Of a DNA stretch of 64,000 nt, positions 1 through 12,738 are shown one piece after another. Source of the DNA: a beta proteobacterium CB (GTDB lineage: Bacteria; Pseudomonadota; Gammaproteobacteria; Burkholderiales; Burkholderiaceae); contig CP004348.1 of NCBI GenBank assembly GCA_000342265.1, positions 1,612,001 through 1,676,000 on the forward strand, written 5' to 3'. Both the position numbers and the translations under genes were made by a program. The notes beneath the pieces are model-generated. The model was not told the DNA's origin and did not search any database. It saw only the letters and a program-made list of their open reading frames with translations. Each line of letters opens with the position of its first letter. Position 1 is the stretch's first letter.

Positions 1-495
1 TCGCAAAACCCAATCAGCATACTCGCGAACCTGCATGGATGAAATCTTAGATTCATCAATCGGAATGGCAATTTGCATAATCTCACCCATGATCGAACTA
101 ATGGGCCCCATGCGCGAAACAATGCCATCCGGAATTGCTCCCTCCATAGATGACAGTCTTTCTGAAACCATTTGTCTGGCGCGATAGATGTCTACAGTCC
201 AGTCAAAAGTAACGTATATGAAAGAGAGGCCGGCGCTAGATACTGAGCGAATAGCCTCTACTCCCGGTAAACCATTCATAGCCGTTTCGAGTGGGAATGT
301 AATGAGTTGTTCAACTTCTTCTGAAGCCATTCCGCCAGCCTCGGTCATGATGGTGACAGTAGGCTTATTCAGATCGGGAAAGACATCCACAGGCATCTTG
401 CTTAAGGTGTAGGCACCATAGAACATAGATATAGCACCGAGCAAAATCACTATCATGCGATTTTTTAAGCTGAAATCTAATAACCAAGTAAACAT
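1..495 (-). CDS. Heavy-metal RND efflux pump, inner-membrane permease (N-terminal part, cut by window edge)
   Basis: The frame is open from an ATG at 495 to the window edge and gives 165 residues. The start (MFTWLLDFSLKNR), a first membrane helix at about residues 10-30, and the stretch KMPVDVFPDLNKPTV are typical of CusA/CzcA-type proton-driven metal exporters, which pump metal ions from periplasm or cytoplasm through a TolC channel. It lies 10 bp after the adaptor gene and is the last visible gene of a minus-strand efflux operon. The remaining 850 or so residues, including the residues that would indicate the metal, are outside the window, so the substrate cannot be called. Confidence 0.9.
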   Translation of the reverse strand, partial: MFTWLLDFSLKNRMIVILLGAISMFYGAYTLSKMPVDVFPDLNKPTVTIMTEAGGMASEEVEQLITFPLETAMNGLPGVEAIRSVSSAGLSFIYVTFDWTVDIYRARQMVSERLSSMEGAIPDGIVSRMGPISSIMGEIMQIAIPIDESKISSMQVREYADWVLR

Positions 496-505
496 GTCTT
501 AATCC

Positions 506-1546
506 TTAACGAATTTGATTGATGAGGGATGCCCCATCAGTAATGACTCGTTCACCATCTTTAATACCACTAGTAATAACAATGCTCTGACCATCTAAAG
601 GCTCATATACAACTGTTCTTGGCTCAAATATTTCTGGGGACTTTTTAATCCAGACAATTGTTTGGTTCGAGCTGCTTTTGACTAATGATTTTGAAGGCGC
701 CTTTACTCCAGTGATCTTGCTATCGGTATTTACAAATACTCGAATGGGCTGACCTATGGGTAAAAATTGGAGATCGTCCGATTTAGCAGAAAAAGTTAGA
801 GGTAAGGCTTGCTCTCTGAGGGTCTGTCCACCACCAAGATACTTGAGCTCAATCACTTTGCCATTGACATCCACCTTGCCATCAGCAATGTTCTTACTCA
901 GACTTGAATCGTAGGCAAGCGCTTCTATTAATAGCTTGGATGGATTAACGACCTCAAAGATTAGATCTCTTGCTTGCACTACTTGGCCAGATACGACACC
1001 CGTAGTAGAAATAATTCCGCTGACTGGGGCTCTTAATTCTTCATTAGCAACAGCGGCTTCTGCCTCTTCAATAGTCTTACGAGGGACCGTATCGCTCAGA
1101 TCTCGCAAACGCTTTAGTCGACTTTCCGCAAGTGATCTTGATTTTCCTGGGCCAGCCTCTGGCGTTACATACGCCAAGACATCGCCTTTACTAACCTTCT
1201 GTCCGGGCAATGGAAAACCAGCTGGTCCCGGCGTAATACGGCCAGCAACAATCGCTTGCACCTTACCGCCAAAGTTAGGATCCATAATGACTTTTCCAGC
1301 TAAATCATAGGTTTTGGCATATTCGCCGAACTGGCCAGGAGCTGTCATCACGTGTAACTGGCGTTGCGCAGGCTTGGGAATAAAAAGACTGCCGTCCGAC
1401 TGTCTTTTAGGGGCGTCACCTTGAACTTGGGATACTTCCGACTCGCCATGACCCGGCCCAGCATAAACCTTAAAAGCAAATAGCGCCACAGATAAACTAA
1501 TGAGGACAATGGGGCGAAATACAAAATCTCTCTGTTTGCGATTCAT
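506..1546 (-). CDS. RND efflux periplasmic adaptor subunit (HlyD/CusB-like)
   Basis: This 346-residue protein has a signal peptide (about residues 1-30) ending before AGPGHGE. It is followed by a barrel/lipoyl-type segment (VAGRITPGPAGFPLPGQKVSKGDVLAYV), a short helical hairpin, and a second lipoyl half (LRAPVSGIISTTGVVSGQVV). This is the membrane-fusion protein arrangement that links the inner-membrane pump to the outer-membrane channel. The hairpin is short (about 40 residues), as in metal-type adaptors. Its start codon overlaps the stop of the upstream gene by 4 bp (ATGA), so the two are probably translationally coupled. The specific metal is unknown. Confidence 0.9.
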   Translation of the reverse strand: MNRKQRDFVFRPIVLISLSVALFAFKVYAGPGHGESEVSQVQGDAPKRQSDGSLFIPKPAQRQLHVMTAPGQFGEYAKTYDLAGKVIMDPNFGGKVQAIVAGRITPGPAGFPLPGQKVSKGDVLAYVTPEAGPGKSRSLAESRLKRLRDLSDTVPRKTIEEAEAAVANEELRAPVSGIISTTGVVSGQVVQARDLIFEVVNPSKLLIEALAYDSSLSKNIADGKVDVNGKVIELKYLGGGQTLREQALPLTFSAKSDDLQFLPIGQPIRVFVNTDSKITGVKAPSKSLVKSSSNQTIVWIKKSPEIFEPRTVVYEPLDGQSIVITSGIKDGERVITDGASLINQIR

Positions 1547-2112
1547 ACCCGCTCCTTAATTTGTTTGATTAGTTTTTTTGTATTCGTCATCAACACCTCT
1601 TTCTTGCGATAAGACAAATAGGCAATTGCCATCAAGAGGCTGAAATAAAGCAAGATCTTTATTGCTGATTTCCAAGTGATCAATGAGGAGCGCTCAAAGG
1701 AACTTAGATCTATAGTGGCTGCTAGTATGTCGGTAACATCATCATTAATCGTGATGGTGATCGCAGTAGGCTGATCTTTAATTTTATTTTTTAGGCGAAA
1801 GAGATACTCTCCATCGCCATGAGGCTCTGAACTAATTTTAGAGCCCTCAAGCTCAATTTCAACCTTGGCTCCTTTGACCAATTCATTGGAGGAGTAGCGA
1901 TCTAGGTAGAGCGTGATTTCCTTGCCGTTAATCACTCCTACCGCCTCATAGAGATCAGATTCAGCATAAAAGCGAGGTAGTGATTGAGTTTGTGCAGTGG
2001 TGGGTTTTTCCTCCCCATGACCAGGACCTGCATAAGTTGCCGATGCGATCGTCAGAAATAGCGCAATTAATAGTTTTGACGCCCACTGACTATATTTGTT
2101 CAATAAATTCAT
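1543..2112 (-). CDS. Small exported membrane-anchored accessory protein of the efflux operon
   Basis: I start this gene at the ATG at 2112, which follows AAGGT and lies 13 bp after the TolC-gene stop; an earlier in-frame start would overlap that gene by about 90 bp. The 189-residue product has a signal peptide ending at YAGPGHGEE, a soluble beta-rich middle part, one membrane helix at about residues 155-175, and a basic tail. The AGPGHGE motif at the mature N-terminus is also present in the adaptor encoded next door. Similar small proteins occur inside metal RND operons, but I do not recognise a named family. A periplasmic helper for adaptor or pump assembly is an inference. Confidence 0.75.
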   Translation of the reverse strand: MNLLNKYSQWASKLLIALFLTIASATYAGPGHGEEKPTTAQTQSLPRFYAESDLYEAVGVINGKEITLYLDRYSSNELVKGAKVEIELEGSKISSEPHGDGEYLFRLKNKIKDQPTAITITINDDVTDILAATIDLSSFERSSLITWKSAIKILLYFSLLMAIAYLSYRKKEVLMTNTKKLIKQIKERV

Positions 2113-2125
2113 AGTTAAAGTGACC

Positions 2126-3409
2126 TTACTCTGGTAACAGGCCAAGGGCCTGTCGTAAATTTGAAACTGAAACTGCGTAATTGATTTTTGCAATTGCAGC
2201 CTGCCTATTTGCATCCACTGCTTCTAGCTCAATACGTAGTCTTGTGGGCAAATCGGTTTCACCAAAGCGAAATGATTTGTCAAAAAATTGACGTGTTTCA
2301 TTGGCTAAGTTAGACCTCTTATCTGCAGCGCCAAGCTTCATTTTTGCCGACTTCACTAAAGCCACATTTGACTCCACATTACTTAATGCAGACTCTCGCT
2401 CATAGGACAATCGAACCTCTGAATCGACCATCTCAGCAGTAGCACTGGCCAATCTATTGGTATTGCGAGCATCAGAGCCAAAAGGAATTCTTAACCCAAC
2501 AGCAACTGATTGCTGATACGGAACGCCATAGACTTCACGGCCCTTAGTAGTCCATATTTGCAATTGTGGGGAAGCCCGAGTTTGAGACTTTGCTAGGTCA
2601 ACTGCTTTTTTAGCAACCTCTAACTGATCTACAAGGGCTGCAACGATTGGCAAACTAGAATCTAGTCCTGACAGGTTTTCAGGAACCTTAGGTAGCGGTT
2701 CAATATTTTTAGCAATGTCACCGAATTGAATTTTCTTGAGATACTCACTTCCTAATAAAGTACGCACCCTTTGCTCAGCATTAATTACGTTGGCCTGCGC
2801 TTCGACCAAAAAAGCTTCTGATGATGCGAGGGCACCATTAGCCTGATGAAGATCAGCGCGAGATAAGTCTCCAGCCTTAAATCTCTTTTCAACATCAAGA
2901 GCTAAGCTCTTTGCATTCTCATTTCTGCGTAGCGCTAAATCAGACTCAATTTTTGATTTCTGGTAATTCCAATAGGCATCCCTTACTTCAGCTGCAATTC
3001 TCAATTGGGATAGATAGTATTGAGACAAAAGCTTTTTATATTCAGCATCCGCTAAATTAATTGAGCTTGACCGCTCATTCCATAACCACAGGGGGATATC
3101 TAAACCCAGTATGGTTTCACTAGCGCCTTGATTGCTGTTAGTTCTATCGGTCTTTTGCGACACTTCAACCGAAGCTGGGCTTACCAAAAGGCTGCTAGCA
3201 ATTTTTTGCTTAGCAAGCGCGGCCTCTACTCGATACTGATAGGACTTGTAGTCAGGTTGGCGCTCCCATGAAGATTCATAGAAGGACTTTAAGGTCGATC
3301 CACCTTTGAGCTCGGCATTAGCCAGCGCTATTGGCGATCCCAATATAAATACCAATCCAGTAAATTGAATGACGCAGCGACGAACTACGCCCGAATACTC
3401 TCGCAACAT
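2126..3409 (-). CDS. TolC-family outer-membrane efflux channel
   Basis: The product is 427 residues long, with a signal peptide at about residues 1-30 and two repeated long-helix segments rich in Ala, Leu, Glu and Lys (for example around EVRDAYWNYQKSK and ALSNVESNVALVKSAK). This is the usual architecture and length of trimeric outer-membrane channels of RND systems. It is the second gene of the metal-efflux operon, after the CzcI-like gene and before the accessory protein and adaptor. It should let the pump expel metal directly to the outside. Confidence 0.9.
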   Translation of the reverse strand: MLREYSGVVRRCVIQFTGLVFILGSPIALANAELKGGSTLKSFYESSWERQPDYKSYQYRVEAALAKQKIASSLLVSPASVEVSQKTDRTNSNQGASETILGLDIPLWLWNERSSSINLADAEYKKLLSQYYLSQLRIAAEVRDAYWNYQKSKIESDLALRRNENAKSLALDVEKRFKAGDLSRADLHQANGALASSEAFLVEAQANVINAEQRVRTLLGSEYLKKIQFGDIAKNIEPLPKVPENLSGLDSSLPIVAALVDQLEVAKKAVDLAKSQTRASPQLQIWTTKGREVYGVPYQQSVAVGLRIPFGSDARNTNRLASATAEMVDSEVRLSYERESALSNVESNVALVKSAKMKLGAADKRSNLANETRQFFDKSFRFGETDLPTRLRIELEAVDANRQAAIAKINYAVSVSNLRQALGLLPE

Positions 3410-4243: not shown

Positions 4244-5596
4244 CTATGCCGCACGTAGCTCTCGTTCAGCCCGCTTCTTACTTTGATAGCTCGCACTAAC
4301 TTTAGCGTCAGCCTCAATTAACCGCCTAGTTTCCGCACCACGGAGCTGTTCTGCTGCTTGGATAACCTTTAAGTGACTATAGTGGCGCTCAATCATTACA
4401 ACACTGGTACCCATTTGCTTGGCTAGGGTATGAATAGGTACTCGGTCATGGGTTAACGCTAAAGTGGCATACGTATGACGTAAGCTATAAAACACTCGCT
4501 TTTGATCTGTCTTTGGATCCTTTAATAAGTTGTGATCTTCCAAGAAGCACATAAACATCTTCTGAAATGACTCACTGACATCTTCCTTATTATCCTTAGT
4601 CCTAAATACATAATCTTCATTAGTAGGAACAATCAAGTCCTTAAGGGGCTCAGTTAATGAGCTATCAACCCCATAGTTTCTCTGGGCTATACGCTCCAGC
4701 ACCTTTACTGTGGGCTGCCTACCAATAATTTGCCTGGTGCCTGTTTTTCCAGTAACAGTAAGCTCACAACTACGGTTTAGGTTATGCACTTCAATGCGCT
4801 CACCCCGTTCATCGACTTGATCTGTCAAAGTTGAGGCAGGGCTCATCATGAAGCGAATCTGCTTCCACTTAATATCCAGTAGCTCAATCCCAGGTCTTGC
4901 GCCAGTATCGACTAGCATCTCAATATAGTCGCGCATGATTTGTCTACGCTCACGACTAGCCAGATTGCGAGCAGCATCAATCCAAGGTTCTAAGTTAGCC
5001 AATAGGGCCTTTAGTTCATGCAATTCAAAAGCTGGTCTACGATCACTCTTCTTGCCATTGTTGGCTACTAGCTTGGGACGATTGGCTTCAGTTAAAAAAC
5101 CTCGAATGACCGCTTCATCAAATACCCTGTTCATCGCAGCATTTTGAGTATGTAAGGTACTAGACGTAGGCTCTTTACCCATCAGCTCAATCCGATCTCG
5201 ATCAAACTGCTCTAGTGCTTCATAGTCAATATTAGTAATCATGCGATTACCTAGCGAGGGAATGATGTAATCCTTGATCACCCGAACGTAGTCTCTATAG
5301 ATGACTTTGCCTTTGCCAGCAGATAACTCTTGCTCCATACGTTCAACGGCTAGCTTGGCAATATCTTTAAAGCGACGAGTAACAACAGGCAAATTAGAGC
5401 GATTACGAATCTGCGCTTCAAAGAAGATTTCTTTAGCCCGATCTTTAGCCAGCTCGATCTTTCGCTCCTTGGTAGAAGCTCTTTGCCAAACTCCAGCAAC
5501 CTTATAGCGACATTGCCAGATGCCACTGCGCTCACGGCGATAGATCACCAGCTCCCTAGGTAGCAGCTCATGGGTAGTTTCAACGATTTTCGGCAT
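4244..5596 (-). CDS. Tyrosine-type site-specific integrase
   Basis: This 450-residue protein has the C-terminal catalytic pattern of phage-type tyrosine recombinases. The first arginine is in TGARPGIELLDIKW (about residue 233), the LRHTYAT box is at about residue 369, and the nucleophile tyrosine is in ERHYSHL (about residue 404). The histidine normally found before the LRH box appears to be tyrosine (FYSLRH). The N-terminal half should bind arm-type sites. Such enzymes insert elements into tRNA genes, which fits the tRNA-Ile repeats 3-7 kb away. Its start overlaps the end of a 62-codon gene, so it seems to be the last gene of a three-gene operon. Confidence 0.92.
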   Translation of the reverse strand: MPKIVETTHELLPRELVIYRRERSGIWQCRYKVAGVWQRASTKERKIELAKDRAKEIFFEAQIRNRSNLPVVTRRFKDIAKLAVERMEQELSAGKGKVIYRDYVRVIKDYIIPSLGNRMITNIDYEALEQFDRDRIELMGKEPTSSTLHTQNAAMNRVFDEAVIRGFLTEANRPKLVANNGKKSDRRPAFELHELKALLANLEPWIDAARNLASRERRQIMRDYIEMLVDTGARPGIELLDIKWKQIRFMMSPASTLTDQVDERGERIEVHNLNRSCELTVTGKTGTRQIIGRQPTVKVLERIAQRNYGVDSSLTEPLKDLIVPTNEDYVFRTKDNKEDVSESFQKMFMCFLEDHNLLKDPKTDQKRVFYSLRHTYATLALTHDRVPIHTLAKQMGTSVVMIERHYSHLKVIQAAEQLRGAETRRLIEADAKVSASYQSKKRAERELRAA

Positions 5597-8837: not shown

Positions 8838-8923
8838 TTTCTGGTGGGCCCACCAGGACTTGAACCTGGGACCAAAGGATTCCGGTTTGCGTAGCTTTCA
8901 CTACTCCCTGGACTATGCCTTCA
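8838..8923 (-). pseudogene. Partial tRNA-Ile copy: intron 3' end plus 3' exon (attachment-site repeat)
   Basis: These 86 bp are identical to 12249-12334. Read on the minus strand they contain the last 42 nt of the group I intron (8882-8923), the whole 40-nt 3' exon with CCA (8842-8881) and 4 flanking bases. The intron core and 5' exon are absent, so it cannot make a tRNA. Such a duplicate of a tRNA 3' end marks an att site left by integration. It separates the kinase/integrase segment from the haloacid cassette. Confidence 0.85.
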
Positions 8924-8925
8924 AA

Positions 8926-9627
8926 CTATCTTTTTAGTGTTTGATGGACAAACTTTTCCAGACTCTCAAATAACTCATCCGAAGCCCTTTCAGCGGCTTT
9001 AGAGTCGCCATTAGAGATTGCCAAAGCGAGGTTTGCGTGCAGTTTTCCAGATTCCGCATCATCCTGGCTTTGATGATAAACAAACCAAAATCTCCGCGAT
9101 AAAGAATCTAAAGAATCTAATGCCCTAGATGCAAATTCATTTCTCACGCAAGTGGAAAAATGATCATGAAAGGCTTTATCAGCCTGCAAAAGTGCATGAC
9201 CGTCTCTTGTTTTGACTGCACCCAAAAGCTGATCAGCAATTGCTTGCATTTGCTTACGCTCTTCATCACTTGAACGTCTTGCAGCAGATCCGGCAGCAAA
9301 TCGAGATACTACACACCTAAATTCCAAAAGCTTTAACTGATCAGCAATATTGATTTCGGTGACAACAATTCCCCGACGCGGAAGGATGTTAACTAATCCC
9401 TCCCTAGCTAATCGTTGGAGAGCCTCTCCAATCGGCGTTCTGCTGACTTGAAGCATCTCGCCCAACTCTGACTCAGAAAGCATCTGTCCCGGCTTAAATT
9501 GAAGAGTGACGATCATTTCCTCAAGCTCAGCGTACACCTTATCAGCCAAGCTGATGATGTCAGTCTTTTGCAAGACTAGTCGCTTCTTTTTTCCGGTATT
9601 TTTTAATTCAGTATTTTTTAATTTCAC
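8926..9627 (-). CDS. GntR-family (FadR-type, FCD domain) transcription regulator
   Basis: The 233-residue protein has an N-terminal winged helix-turn-helix (LSESELGEMLQVSRTPIGEAL, about residues 50-70) and a helical C-terminal FCD ligand domain with metal-site residues in DKAFHDHF (about 149) and near LHANLA (about 198). This subgroup usually represses or activates genes for organic-acid use. It is the third gene after a haloacid dehalogenase and a permease, and its stop codon lies 2 bp from the attachment repeat, so the element boundary coincides with the gene end. Regulation of the adjacent cassette is inferred. Confidence 0.85.
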   Translation of the reverse strand: MKLKNTELKNTGKKKRLVLQKTDIISLADKVYAELEEMIVTLQFKPGQMLSESELGEMLQVSRTPIGEALQRLAREGLVNILPRRGIVVTEINIADQLKLLEFRCVVSRFAAGSAARRSSDEERKQMQAIADQLLGAVKTRDGHALLQADKAFHDHFSTCVRNEFASRALDSLDSLSRRFWFVYHQSQDDAESGKLHANLALAISNGDSKAAERASDELFESLEKFVHQTLKR

Positions 9628-9694: not shown

Positions 9695-11365
9695 TTATAA
9701 TTTTATATCCACATTTTTAGTTTCCGGTAAAAATATCAAGCCAAAAATTACAGTCACTGCCGCAATAATTACCGGGTACCAGAGTCCATAGTAAATATCG
9801 CCCTCTAAGGCCACTAGAGCAAAGGCTGTTGTAGGCATTAGGCCCCCAAACCAACCAGTGCCAATATGATAGGGCAGCGAGAGGGAAGAATAGCGAATTT
9901 TGGTTGGAAAGAGCTCAACCAAGGCTGCCGCTGTTGGTCCATAAGCCATCGTTACATAGATTACAAGCAAAAATACCAGCAAGAAAACCATTGGTTTATT
10001 GATCTCATCTACATTTGCTTTTTGAGGATAACCAGCCTCTGAAATGGTAGCGCTCAGCTCTTTTGCAAAATTATTCATTTTTAGTGCAGCCTCTTCTTTT
10101 GAGAGTCCCACTGAGTCAAATGAATTAACAATCTTATCGCCAACTTTAACGCTCGCAATTGTTCCGGGCACCGCATTCTCAACATGATAGTTAACTGATG
10201 CAGCTACTAACTTTGCCTTAGCAATATCACAAGAAGAGGTAAATTTCTTAGTTCCAGTGGGGTTAAATTGAAATTGACAATCCCCAGGATCTGCTACCAC
10301 AACTACAGGGGAATTTTTTAATGCCATCTCTAGAGCAGGATTCGCATAATGTGTCAGACCTTTAAATATTGGGAAATAGGTCAGCACAGCCAATGCCATT
10401 CCAGTCAGAATAATTTTTTTTCTTCCAATACGATCTGATAGCGTGCCAAATATCAAAAAGAATGGGGTGGCGAGTAAAAGCGCCCCAGCCACAATTAAAT
10501 TCGCAGTAACGCTATCAACCTTAAGTGTTTGCGTCAAGAAAAGTAGTACATAAAATTGACCCGTATACCAAACACACCCTAATCCGGCGGTGATACCAAA
10601 CAATGCTATCAATACAATTTTCAAATTTTTCCAACGCAGGAATGACTCTGTTAATGGGGCTTTTGACTCAGCCCCCTCCTCTTTCATTTTGGCAAACACA
10701 GGCGACTCGCTCATAGACATGCGAATCCATACAGAGATTCCTAGCAAAATGATGGATACCAAGAACGGGATGCGCCAACCCCAATCTCCAAAGGCCGCCT
10801 CACCCAAGAATAGTCTTGTTGATAGGATTACTAACAGTGATAGAAATAGCCCCAAGGTTGCGGTAGTCTGTATCCAAGCAGTAAATTGCCCCCGTTGATT
10901 ATTCGGCGCATGCTCCGCTACATAAACTACAGCACCGCCATACTCTCCGCCAAGCGCAAGACCTTGCAACAACCTAAGCGAAATCAGAATAATCGGCGCT
11001 GCAATACCTATACTTTCATATGCAGGCAGCAAACCAACACCAAAGGTCGATAAGCCCATAATGAGGATGGTCATTAAAAAGGTATATTTGCGACCGATCA
11101 TGTCCCCAAGTCGACCAAATACGAGGGCGCCAAATGGGCGAACGATAAAGCCTGCCGCAAAGGCTAATAAAGCAAAAATAAGTCCCGTTGTTGGATCGGC
11201 CTTGGCAAAAAATTGCTTCGCTATTACAGCTGCCAAAGATCCATATAAAAAGAAGTCATACCATTCAAATACAGTACCTAAAGATGAAGCAATGAGTATT
11301 TTTCGCTCCGCCTCAGTAATGACCCTTTTGCTGTTTACAGAATTATTTGTGCTTTGAGTTGACAT
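9695..11365 (-). CDS. MHS-family MFS organic-acid/proton symporter, haloacid permease-like
   Basis: This 556-residue protein has the MHS-type signature (SSLGTVFEWYDFFLYGSLA near residue 28; GRLGDMIGRKYTF near residue 85) and about 12 membrane helices. An unusual soluble insert of roughly 120 residues lies between late helices (about residues 340-455), with two Cys. Length and insert resemble the haloacid permease Deh4p of Burkholderia, which is encoded beside a type II haloacid dehalogenase, as here. The gene lies 28 bp after the dehalogenase gene. Uptake of short (halo)carboxylates is inferred from family and context. Confidence 0.82.
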   Translation of the reverse strand: MSTQSTNNSVNSKRVITEAERKILIASSLGTVFEWYDFFLYGSLAAVIAKQFFAKADPTTGLIFALLAFAAGFIVRPFGALVFGRLGDMIGRKYTFLMTILIMGLSTFGVGLLPAYESIGIAAPIILISLRLLQGLALGGEYGGAVVYVAEHAPNNQRGQFTAWIQTTATLGLFLSLLVILSTRLFLGEAAFGDWGWRIPFLVSIILLGISVWIRMSMSESPVFAKMKEEGAESKAPLTESFLRWKNLKIVLIALFGITAGLGCVWYTGQFYVLLFLTQTLKVDSVTANLIVAGALLLATPFFLIFGTLSDRIGRKKIILTGMALAVLTYFPIFKGLTHYANPALEMALKNSPVVVVADPGDCQFQFNPTGTKKFTSSCDIAKAKLVAASVNYHVENAVPGTIASVKVGDKIVNSFDSVGLSKEEAALKMNNFAKELSATISEAGYPQKANVDEINKPMVFLLVFLLVIYVTMAYGPTAAALVELFPTKIRYSSLSLPYHIGTGWFGGLMPTTAFALVALEGDIYYGLWYPVIIAAVTVIFGLIFLPETKNVDIKL

Positions 11366-11393: not shown

Positions 11394-12068
11394 TTAGCCA
11401 AGAAGATTTGGAATTTCGGCTATCGAAGTTAATGCAACATCAGGAAGAAGGCCCACCTCGTCAGGGATTGCACCATTCCGATTAATCCAAATCACCTGAA
11501 ACCCGAATGCTTTGGCACCAGCTACATCAAAGTAATTTGATGTAACAAATCCAATTTCATGTCTTTGGAGATCGAACTTATCAGTTGCCAACTGATAAGT
11601 TCTTGGATGTGGCTTATAAACTTTGACCTCATCCACACTTAATAAGGCGTCAAATTGATCCGTAATTCCTGCGTTGCCAACTAAATTTGTTAGTAATGAT
11701 GGGGTTCCAACAGATAGGATTGCCCTCTTAAGTCCACTCAATTTAGGAAGAGTCTGCCTAGCATCCTCAAAGGGAGATAACCTTTCGTAGGCATCCATTA
11801 AGGCACCTCTCTCACTTGTTCCTCCAGGAAGCCCTAAATATTTCAATGAATACTTAAGGCCTGCTTCTGTATTTTGGTTATGGGGTATATATCTACCCAT
11901 AATGGTTCTCAAAAACATATATTCAATTTGCTTTGATCTCCAAAGTTGACTTAACTCCTTGCCTTTCCCTGGGTACATCTTTTCAGCCAAAGCAACAACT
12001 GAGTGAACATCAAACACCGTTCCATAAGCGTCAAACGCAAGAGCTTTAATTCCGTGCAATTTTTTCAT
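11394..12068 (-). CDS. Type II (S)-2-haloacid dehalogenase-like hydrolase
   Basis: I start at the ATG at 12068, preceded by AAGGA; the frame could extend upstream but without a ribosome site. The 224-residue HAD-superfamily protein has the nucleophile Asp13 in FDAYGTVFD, the arginine of LWRSKQIEY (residue 44), a Ser in LSVGTPSLL, the lysine of VYKPHPRTY, and the acidic end SNYFDVAGAK. These correspond to the L-2-haloacid dehalogenase catalytic set. One oddity is Val after the Ser, where L-DEX-type enzymes have Asn. Together with the permease it suggests use of 2-haloacids such as chloroacetate. The true substrate is untested. Confidence 0.82.
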   Translation of the reverse strand: MKKLHGIKALAFDAYGTVFDVHSVVALAEKMYPGKGKELSQLWRSKQIEYMFLRTIMGRYIPHNQNTEAGLKYSLKYLGLPGGTSERGALMDAYERLSPFEDARQTLPKLSGLKRAILSVGTPSLLTNLVGNAGITDQFDALLSVDEVKVYKPHPRTYQLATDKFDLQRHEIGFVTSNYFDVAGAKAFGFQVIWINRNGAIPDEVGLLPDVALTSIAEIPNLLG

Positions 12069-12186
12069 ACATTCCTTACTGAAGTTCAATTGGGATTTCA
12101 GTAGGATACTAGTAAAAAATGGGAAAAACATAGCCAATCAAGCTAGTGAAAACCCTTGTTTGCAAAAATTTTTACTTCGAATTGCT

Positions 12187-12213: not shown

Positions 12214-12248
12214 GACAAAACCCCCACCATTTCTGATGAGGGTTTGCT
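12214..12248 (-). terminator. Terminator of the intron-containing tRNA-Ile gene
   Basis: On the minus strand AAACCCTCA (12245-12237) pairs with TGGGGGTTT (12226-12218), with one G-T pair, and is followed by TTGTCTTTT. It starts 8 bp after the encoded CCA end of the tRNA. Confidence 0.7.
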
Positions 12249-12334
12249 TTTCTGGTGGGCCCACCAGGACTTGAACCTGGGACCAAAGGATTCCGGTTTG
12301 CGTAGCTTTCACTACTCCCTGGACTATGCCTTCA
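12249..12334 (-). repeat. 86-bp attachment repeat inside the tRNA-Ile gene
   Basis: It is identical to 8838-8923, and the two copies are 3,411 bp apart in direct orientation. It covers the intron 3' end, the 3' exon and 4 bp of flank. It is the tRNA-side end of the haloacid cassette. Confidence 0.85.
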
Positions 12335-12540
12335 TCATATCGATTGCTCGACTTAGATGGGTGCCGTCTAGTCTCTACACCTTCAACAGCACTTTCATAC
12401 TGAAGCTTGGCTCGGCGTTAGCTTGGATATTTCTACCTTTAGCTTTCTCCGAATTTGACACCATCCCATATACAGTTTCCACGTATATGGCACAACTTAC
12501 GCCATGAGTCCTCTGCTCTAACCAACTGAGCTATAGGCCC
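12253..12540 (-). tRNA. tRNA-Ile (CAU anticodon), interrupted by a group I intron
   Basis: The 5' exon is 12540-12504 (37 nt, ending with the anticodon CAT) and the 3' exon is 12292-12253 (40 nt, with encoded CCA). Joined, they give a 77-nt cloverleaf: acceptor GGGCCTA/TGGGCCC, D-arm GCTC/GAGC, anticodon stem GAGGA/TCCTT with loop CTCATAA, and T-arm CCAGG/CCTGG with TTCAAGT. A CAU anticodon with this body is the minor isoleucine tRNA whose C34 is changed to lysidine to read AUA. The intron sits between positions 36 and 37. A terminator follows. This appears to be the only complete copy in the window, so splicing would be required. Confidence 0.92.
12293..12503 (-). ncRNA. Group I self-splicing intron (211 nt, no ORF), Azoarcus tRNA-Ile type
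   Basis: The guide GTG (12493-12491) pairs with exon CAT. P2 is CCATATAC/GTATATGG (12490-12483 with 12473-12466) with a GAAA tip. The core has GGATGGTGTCAAATTCGG, AACGCCGAGCCAAGCTTC and GTGTAGAGACTAGACGGCAC, with P7 strands GACTA (12373-12369) and TAGTC (12326-12322). P9 is GTAGT-GAAA-GCTAC (12315-12302). It ends CAAACCGG with a final G at 12293. These blocks are almost the same as in the 205-nt Azoarcus intron in the same tRNA at the same position. No homing endonuclease is encoded. Confidence 0.92.
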
Positions 12541-12600
12541 TAAAACTACACTTTTTAACCCGATAAAACTGGGCTAAAACTACTGCTTTACAACTTGCCT

Positions 12601-12622
12601 CGGTGTGTAAGCGGTGTGTAAG
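12601..12622. repeat. Two tandem 11-bp repeats upstream of the tRNA
   Basis: CGGTGTGTAAG occurs twice back to back, between the lone 5' exon and the complete tRNA gene. Short direct repeats next to an att site are often integrase arm-binding sites, but that is conjecture here. Confidence 0.5.
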
Positions 12623-12701
12623 CAAACTTATCCACCCTTACCACGCTAAGACCCTTATGTTTATTAGGTTCTTAGCAAAATACAACGAGGTTATCTCTCT
12701 T

Positions 12702-12738
12702 ATGAGTCCTCTGCTCTAACCAACTGAGCTATAGGCCC
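12702..12738 (-). pseudogene. Lone 5' exon copy of tRNA-Ile (CAU)
   Basis: These 37 bp are identical to the tRNA 5' exon at 12504-12540, from GGGCCTATAG through the anticodon CAT. The following two bases (AA) match the spliced 3' exon, after which similarity stops. It lies 13 bp past the rpoD stop codon. It is most likely the chromosome-side remnant of the original tRNA gene, split in the anticodon loop when an element carrying its own complete copy integrated. Confidence 0.8.

Follow-up and report, generated by a model that had tools for sequence, protein, structure and literature searches.

An intron-bearing tRNA-Ile(CAU) gene as the probable rescue copy of an integrative element that split the resident gene beside rpoD in Polynucleobacter

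How does a group I intron without an endonuclease gene come to lie in the one tRNA gene through which a bacterium should read AUA codons? The question is raised by a locus on the minus strand of a 64,000-nucleotide stretch (the window) from the freshwater bacterium beta proteobacterium CB (contig CP004348.1, positions 1,612,001 to 1,676,000), whose genome is designated G000 below and whose genus was taken as Polynucleobacter. The original prediction, made from the letters of the window, had suggested vertical retention of the intron or its transfer among betaproteobacteria. We consider a different origin very likely, namely that an integrative element of ~40.7 kb split a resident, intronless tRNA-Ile(CAU) gene beside rpoD, and that the intron-bearing gene is the rescue copy which this element brought along.

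The intron-bearing tRNA gene and AUA decoding

The gene occupies positions 12540-12253 of the window and consists of three parts:

12504..12540, minus strand: exon 1 of the element's presumed rescue tRNA-Ile(CAU), 37 nt, 3′ end CAT
12293..12503, minus strand: group I intron, 211 nt, after U36, last base G
12253..12292, minus strand: exon 2 of the presumed rescue tRNA-Ile(CAU), 40 nt

We confirmed that this is a CAU tRNA gene with a group I intron after its anticodon. Indeed, the Rfam covariance model RF00028, which the original prediction had named as a check, matches positions 12508-12300 of the minus strand over its full length with 53.4 bits (E 9.6e-11), above the gathering score of 50; no other match at the Rfam gathering score was found in the 64-kb window. 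The class of the intron, its position right after the anticodon (exon 1 ends with CAT at 12504) and the joining of 37 and 40 nt into a 77-nt tRNA were thus correctly described. ARAGORN calls no tRNA in the window unless introns are allowed; with introns it reports, on both records that hold the locus (L001 and L034), a cat-anticodon tRNA at 12540-12253 whose intron measures 211 nt. Its label is Met(cat), as for CAT genes generally. By eye, we recognised the elements already listed in the prediction (guide GTG pairing with CAT, GAAA-tipped P2, P9 hairpin and terminal G): P1 is formed by CAU and GUG with a U.G pair at the 5′ splice site, P2 and P9 are both GAAA-capped, and the U-G pair together with the terminal G is what group I splice sites display. 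This terminal G is found in 89/89 distinct U36-type introns that we collected.

Structure predictions agree with this classification. Among 30 introns picked from those found, both-side changes are seen at 21 of the 52 pairs of a predicted structure that draws neither P1 nor P7 as such, and the modelled fold of the precursor is better than those of 198 out of 200 shuffled sequences (z -2.70). With 211 nt, at most 70 codons, the intron is too short to encode an endonuclease as homing introns do. Presumably it belongs to subgroup IC3 and is Azoarcus-like. The precursor would be expected to undergo GTP-dependent self-splicing into an AUA-reading tRNA.

The prediction had also raised the possibility that this is the only tRNA-Ile(CAU) gene, and the complete genome, a single 2.05-Mb contig, bears this out. 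Among its 36 contiguous tRNAs above the tRNA-model cut-off there is no TAT anticodon, and the CAT genes comprise only one initiator-like and one elongator-like Met tRNA. The exon 1 pattern, with up to three mismatches, occurs only twice in the genome, both times at the window locus; neither the tRNA model nor this pattern revealed a second intact tRNA-Ile(CAU) anywhere in the genome. TilS is encoded (186.1 bits, cut-off 93.6). Modification by TilS, which introduces lysidine, makes a CAU anticodon read AUA. A third CAU tRNA besides the two Met tRNAs, in a genome with TilS, points to Ile identity and to a lysidine-bearing product. With this the sole complete tRNA-Ile(CAU) gene detected, the reading of AUA codons should require splicing of its intron. 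AUA accounts for 14 of the 157 Ile codons in five counted genes of the window, nine of the 14 being in one transporter.

The genome holds a second match to RF00028 (G000:C1:374605, 35.7 bits, below gathering). We rejected it as a second tRNA-Ile gene, since it retains only CTCAT of exon 1 and its exon 2 is damaged. This degenerate copy (L033:4300-4870, G000:C1 ~374.3-374.9 kb) lies just after a frame that, by eye, resembles a reverse transcriptase with a YMDD motif. A near-identical copy is present in Polynucleobacter sp. GWA2_45_21 (L122), and G044 and G040 contain RF00028 matches equal to it in length and score.

A split tRNA gene and the borders of the element

What the original prediction overlooked is a second exon 1 beside rpoD, and it is this repeat that points to an inserted element bearing the intron gene:

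12702..12738, minus strand: exon 1 left as an orphan from the resident tRNA-Ile(CAU) gene, adjoining rpoD and cut off after the anticodon; 37-nt exact repeat of the exon 1 above
12700..12706, minus strand: anticodon loop of 7 nt, CTCATAA, where the element joins on its left and where the recombinase overlap is presumed; the same 7 nt occur at the right and tandem junctions
12541..12699, minus strand: left end of the element, with a spacer, arm-like repeats GCTTACACACC x2 (~12602-12623; putative arm sites) and the leader of the rescue tRNA

The orphan lies upstream of the intron-bearing gene, the two exon 1 copies being 198 bp apart from start to start and having different flanks on both sides. 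We aligned the locus with 13 intronless relatives, drawn from 39 genomes classed as direct and intronless. All 13 align from rpoD through the orphan exon 1, and homology stops at 12700; the resident locus thus continues in the orphan and not in the intron-bearing gene. Elsewhere, the distance from orphan to second exon 1 is 197-256 bp from start to start, genomes with the smaller elements of 5.5-5.8 kb described below excepted. Nine printed spacers share a similar layout, two of them carrying CTTCTACA-type repeats instead.

A chance tandem duplication of exon 1 was rejected, since the repeat ends at the very loop where the homology of the relatives stops, and since two different spacers are found in tandem in G086. 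In that genome (L173:6263-6762) the two left-end spacers, with copies 233 and 231 bp apart and each with an exon 1, precede an intron-bearing gene.

The other half of the split gene would be expected at the right end of the element, outside the window. There, CTCATAA recurs at G000:C1:1584000-1583994 in the context ..CTGCTCTCAT|AATCC.., that is, with a perfect intronless exon 2 attached. The two CTCATAA copies are 40.7 kb apart, so that the island extends ~28 kb past window position 1. The tRNA gene of G080 is unbroken and intronless; its identity to this far junction starts at CTCAT and extends into the flanking DNA (1.2 kb at 86%). The same right flank (93%) directly follows the intron-bearing gene in G040, with a second flank ~0.2 kb later. 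This makes 1584000 the likelier right end, and the layout of G040 is as expected if recombination between the two exon 2 copies had removed the body of the element. Identical CTCATAA cores at both ends, together with empty sites (the 13 relatives on the left, G080 on the right), are what defines an integrative element.

Tandem copies provide a further view of its ends. Ten genomes (G078, G012, G076, G079, G071, G086, G007, G073, G050 and G072) contain a right end ..CTCAT that directly abuts a left end starting with AAGAAAG or AAGAGAG, after which come arm-like repeats and a complete intron-bearing tRNA-Ile; the scan for this junction pattern also took in at least 120 further stretches. An element supplying only the exon-1 half was dropped as a model once these junctions had been seen; it still fits the elements of 5.5-5.8 kb.

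We then considered how the intron and the orphan are distributed in the genus, using 101 genomes. Locus states were assigned by hand for 82 of them, the 19 others, for which no rpoD-linked locus was fetched, being left unclassed. Twenty-seven loci have the orphan and a U36 intron, three the orphan and a U33 intron (a second type, inserted one codon earlier), three an intron with no orphan, four an orphan with no intron, 39 neither, two only a 5.5-5.8 kb element, and four are cut off. Orphan and intron are thus strongly linked: across 76 of the 82 genomes, both are present in 30, the orphan only in four, the intron only in three and neither in 39 (Fisher p 2.7e-13, a value that ignores phylogeny). 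Of 11 independent pairs, on average 9.1 went the same way, 0.0 the opposite way and 1.9 did not differ.

Vertical retention within the genus was rejected. On a quick rpoD tree of 79 of the 82 loci (three with under 400 nt of rpoD were dropped; 19 of 76 inner branches are well supported), the U36 intron requires 25 changes for 29 bearers, against a mean of 23.3 for shuffled labels, and 427 of 500 shuffles were as low; the intron is therefore as scattered as shuffled labels, in disagreement with the retention proposed earlier. Well-supported branches force at least 12 changes.

Nor is the intron type confined to few bacteria, as had been assumed. RF00028 matches occur in 39/101 genomes of the genus (above gathering in 29/101; two to four matches in 13), the core motif with up to three mismatches in 13/399 genomes of the order, three of them from this genus, and the exact core motif in 63 stretches of named genomes. 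This named collection shares members with the genus set; of its 18 Polynucleobacter loci, 11 are preceded by an orphan exon and five by an element junction (16 together), and the two others have no intact CAT exon.

Some related introns were encountered outside the genus. Seven IMG/VR viral contigs (L237-L243, some near-duplicates) bear the same intron type in CAT-anticodon tRNA genes; in L237 and L238 another tRNA gene follows the intron-bearing one, and in L243 a different tRNA also contains a group I-like intron, the second of that contig. By eye, a related group I core lies inside the anticodon of a tRNA-Lys(CUU)-like gene in an alphaproteobacterial metagenome-assembled genome (MAG; L113:700-1200). 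The start of the tRNA-Ile intron in a MAG labelled Klebsiella pneumoniae (L081), perhaps misbinned, nearly equals that of a Nevskiaceae MAG (L102).

The recombinase and the proposed course of events

The gene that we presume to encode the integrase lies inside the island:

4244..5596, minus strand: 450-aa divergent tyrosine recombinase-like protein, presumed integrase from homology and the gene neighbourhood of its family

BLASTP gave 34% identity over 402 aa to a PF00589-matching protein, with which the catalytic-type Arg, Arg-His and Tyr are in register, as in integrase motifs. Out of 20 full-length homologues (at least 66% identity, 101 genomes), 18 have an exon-1 copy 1.0-15.3 kb upstream of them, on the same contig and strand; the exceptions are in G096 and G009.

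Altogether, we propose the following course. The recombinase would cross over, by site-specific recombination, in the 7-nt anticodon loop CTCATAA of the resident gene by rpoD, and the split would leave orphan exon 1 at 12738-12702 and an orphan exon 2 ~28 kb beyond the window. The left end of the element would bring a complete replacement tRNA-Ile(CAU) with its own leader, a terminator-like hairpin and the intron in the same loop. Once transcribed, this rescue gene would yield, through GTP-dependent self-splicing and TilS modification, the sole AUA-reading tRNA. The intron would thus spread along with the integration of the element. Two simple deletions could follow: recombination between the exon 2 copies would remove the body of the element, a state present in G040, and the same process at the exon 1 copies would reduce the locus to a plain intron-bearing gene by rpoD, a state present in G023. 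These states belong to different genomes and are not a time series. A circular form is predicted to carry the junction of the right end CTCTCAT with the left end AAGAGAGATAACC.

Several observations weigh against this scheme. The left and right boundaries are seen in different relatives, so that the pairing of these two ends is our deduction, and a second right-end-like junction lies 16 kb further on, at G000:C1:1567533. The following partial copy inside the island is the trace of a further event:

8842..8922, minus strand: partial second copy, with the last 41 nt of the intron (8922-8882) and the whole of exon 2 (8881-8842); a terminator-like hairpin follows (by eye)

At its start the right flank matches, over ~100 bases, the 5′ ends that recombinase genes of the 450-aa family have in many genomes, so that an older insertion may lie behind the resident gene as well. 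The 450-aa protein has no Pfam match of its own. Homologues of it (here at least 42% identity and at most 20 kb downstream) are found by hand in 13 of the 27 rpoD-linked genomes with orphan and U36 intron; six end at a contig edge, and the eight with none are read by us as scars. A simple scan upstream of the rescue gene found no sigma-70-like promoter. Finally, the second gene is intronless in four genomes with the orphan arrangement, three genomes have an intron with no detected orphan, and outside the genus the orphan was seen in only 5/45 named stretches, several being incomplete or another tRNA's. The locus was hit more than once. A recombinase remnant in the right flank (L394:18700-19890, G000:C1:1582699-1583889) comes from an older insertion.

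Two other explanations have to be weighed. The island and its rescue gene may be real and have been inserted by another recombinase, such as the 406-aa/222-aa pair of the 5.5-5.8 kb elements. These elements do lie between exon-1 copies at the same CTCATAA (G006, G027 and G040), and similar partial frames (188 aa with PF00589, 149 aa and 208 aa) occur in the right part of the island in G000. We hold this to be unlikely, since it is the 450-aa family that tracks the tRNA-Ile copies, and since in G006 and G027 the small element has different end sequences and its own exon 1 stands in front of an exon 2 with no intron. Less likely still is that the gene is the host's own, having received its intron by homologous transfer, reverse splicing or inheritance beside an unrelated partial duplication of exon 1: the rpoD-linked introns with no detected orphan in G023, G003 and G025 and the 40/45 named stretches outside the genus with no orphan (some incomplete or of another tRNA) would suit it, but orphan and intron are strongly linked within the genus, the duplication stops at the anticodon loop, the same point as homology to 13/13 relatives, an intronless exon 2 half lies at the far junction, and intron presence is random on the rpoD tree.

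The 5.5-5.8 kb elements deserve a description of their own. They (L211:1419-7236, L181 and L215) encode tyrosine recombinases of 361-406 aa and 221-222 aa and a DUF6641-type protein, and use the same CTCATAA site. In G006 and G027 their right end carries a copy of the 3′ end of rpoD plus exon 1.

The remaining parts of the ~40.7-kb element in the window are a hairpin and cargo genes:

12218..12245, minus strand: intrinsic-terminator-like hairpin after the rescue tRNA; 1 found against 0.8 expected in shuffles, weak alone
11394..12137, minus strand: HAD-family hydrolase
9695..11365, minus strand: MFS/sugar transporter
8926..9627, minus strand: GntR/FCD regulator
2126..3409, minus strand: outer-membrane efflux protein, PF02321
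506..1546, minus strand: HlyD/CusB-like membrane-fusion protein

Among ten proteins scanned, metal-handling-like genes of the island comprise the HlyD/CusB-like protein, two outer-membrane efflux proteins, a MerR regulator, two heavy-metal P-ATPases and a multicopper oxidase; they are borne by G000:C1:1584000-1612000 (L395 and L396) and by window positions 1-3409.

Known systems and the role of the intron

The intron of the Azoarcus tRNA-Ile gene, inserted at the same point after CAU and ~200 nt long, shares with the present one the tRNA and the lack of an endonuclease gene; their core blocks, likened in the original prediction, would be similar. The present intron differs in its setting, as it lies in the probable rescue gene of an integrative element, next to a tRNA gene that was split. 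Crystal structures are available for the Azoarcus sp. BH72 intron, as stated in the part of the article consulted (PMC3984707).

Attachment in the anticodon loop and islands with 5′ fragments are already known, since the Islander article, in the portion seen, tabulates both anticodon-centred attachment sites and islands with 5′ fragments (PMC4383910). Islands of this kind resemble ours in their tyrosine integrase, their crossover in the anticodon loop and the displaced gene fragments (PMC4383910, same portion). The abstract of the article has the split gene restored from island sequence (PMC4383910). Here, by contrast, each half is left as an orphan and the element brings an entire intron-bearing gene. 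The word intron occurs 0 times in the main text of that article (PMC4383910). Tycheposons, as described in an article on islands of Methylophilaceae, are also similar in their cargo, their size of 4-200 kb, their tyrosine recombinase and their border tRNA gene (PMC10872708). Their tRNA is a Met tRNA, and the word intron occurs 0 times in that text (PMC10872708). Border tRNA, tyrosine recombinase, cargo and a size within 4-200 kb are all present here, the two being likened by description and not by kinship of their recombinases.

Splicing of an IStron removes the inserted element from the RNA. Splicing does not remove the large island studied here, whose intron occupies just one of its tRNA genes. 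Both have in common that a group I intron gains mobility at the DNA level from a recombinase-bearing element, an IStron being a group I intron joined to an insertion sequence (PMC4227781). Group I introns in the T-loop region of tmRNA genes are likewise mostly endonuclease-free and lie in a gene that is also used by islands; the portion of that article available gives no link between intron and island (PMC11915505). No title or abstract start among the literature matches listed, which cover the literature in part, joins group I introns to tRNA-targeting islands, and a search for Polynucleobacter together with group I intron found nothing.

Why should the intron and the recombinase meet in one loop? 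Tentatively, we suggest that the intron interrupts the CTCATAA overlap in the rescue gene and would so hide this gene from the element's own recombinase and from rival ones, self-splicing preserving the tRNA. If true, the ribozyme would be an attachment-site camouflage, the recombinase counterpart of an intron that abolishes its homing site, and such introns would have been recruited at least twice, as the U36 and the U33 introns. The explanation towards which we lean is that the intron is a neutral passenger: having got into a rescue tRNA gene on one or a few occasions, it would travel with the element and bring it no benefit.

The genus set contains 54 distinct introns, of which 47 are of the U36 type and start with AG (41) or GG (6), so that no U36 intron of this set leaves CTCATAA intact; this alteration in 47/47 counts against a mere passenger. 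The seven others end with CAT: six are of the U33 type (L216, L197, L138, L175, L225 and L135; 245-251 nt, RF00028 31-34 bits, below gathering), and one, L210, has a U36-type start and is perhaps a hybrid of the two. The site of the group I-like U33 introns is one codon before the U36 site in the same tRNA-Ile, and they, too, are found in second genes of these elements. Introns in such second genes thus lie at either of two places in the loop, U36|A37 or U33|C34, which also counts against the passenger. Camouflage in turn is weakened, and the passenger favoured, by four second genes with no intron and by the fact that anticodon-loop sites are usual for tRNA introns. Three further observations count against camouflage: a right-end junction is followed by the intron in G007, a comparable CTCAT-intron junction exists at G000:C1:374605, and 11/42 introns outside the genus set start with AA. 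Counts of displaced halves were also considered as a test of camouflage, the intronless and intron-bearing right junctions being too few to decide.

It is not settled how group I introns with no endonuclease gene move from one tRNA gene to another; for reverse splicing, the route through RNA, direct experimental support is missing, as a review states (PMC3984707). A DNA route is now visible in genomes, in which a recombinase-bearing island carries the intron in its rescue tRNA gene and simple repeat deletions could leave it in the chromosome. In such a course, a decoding tRNA would have been made dependent on a mobile element and on a ribozyme, and camouflage of the attachment site offers a testable reason why intron and recombinase share one 7-nt loop.
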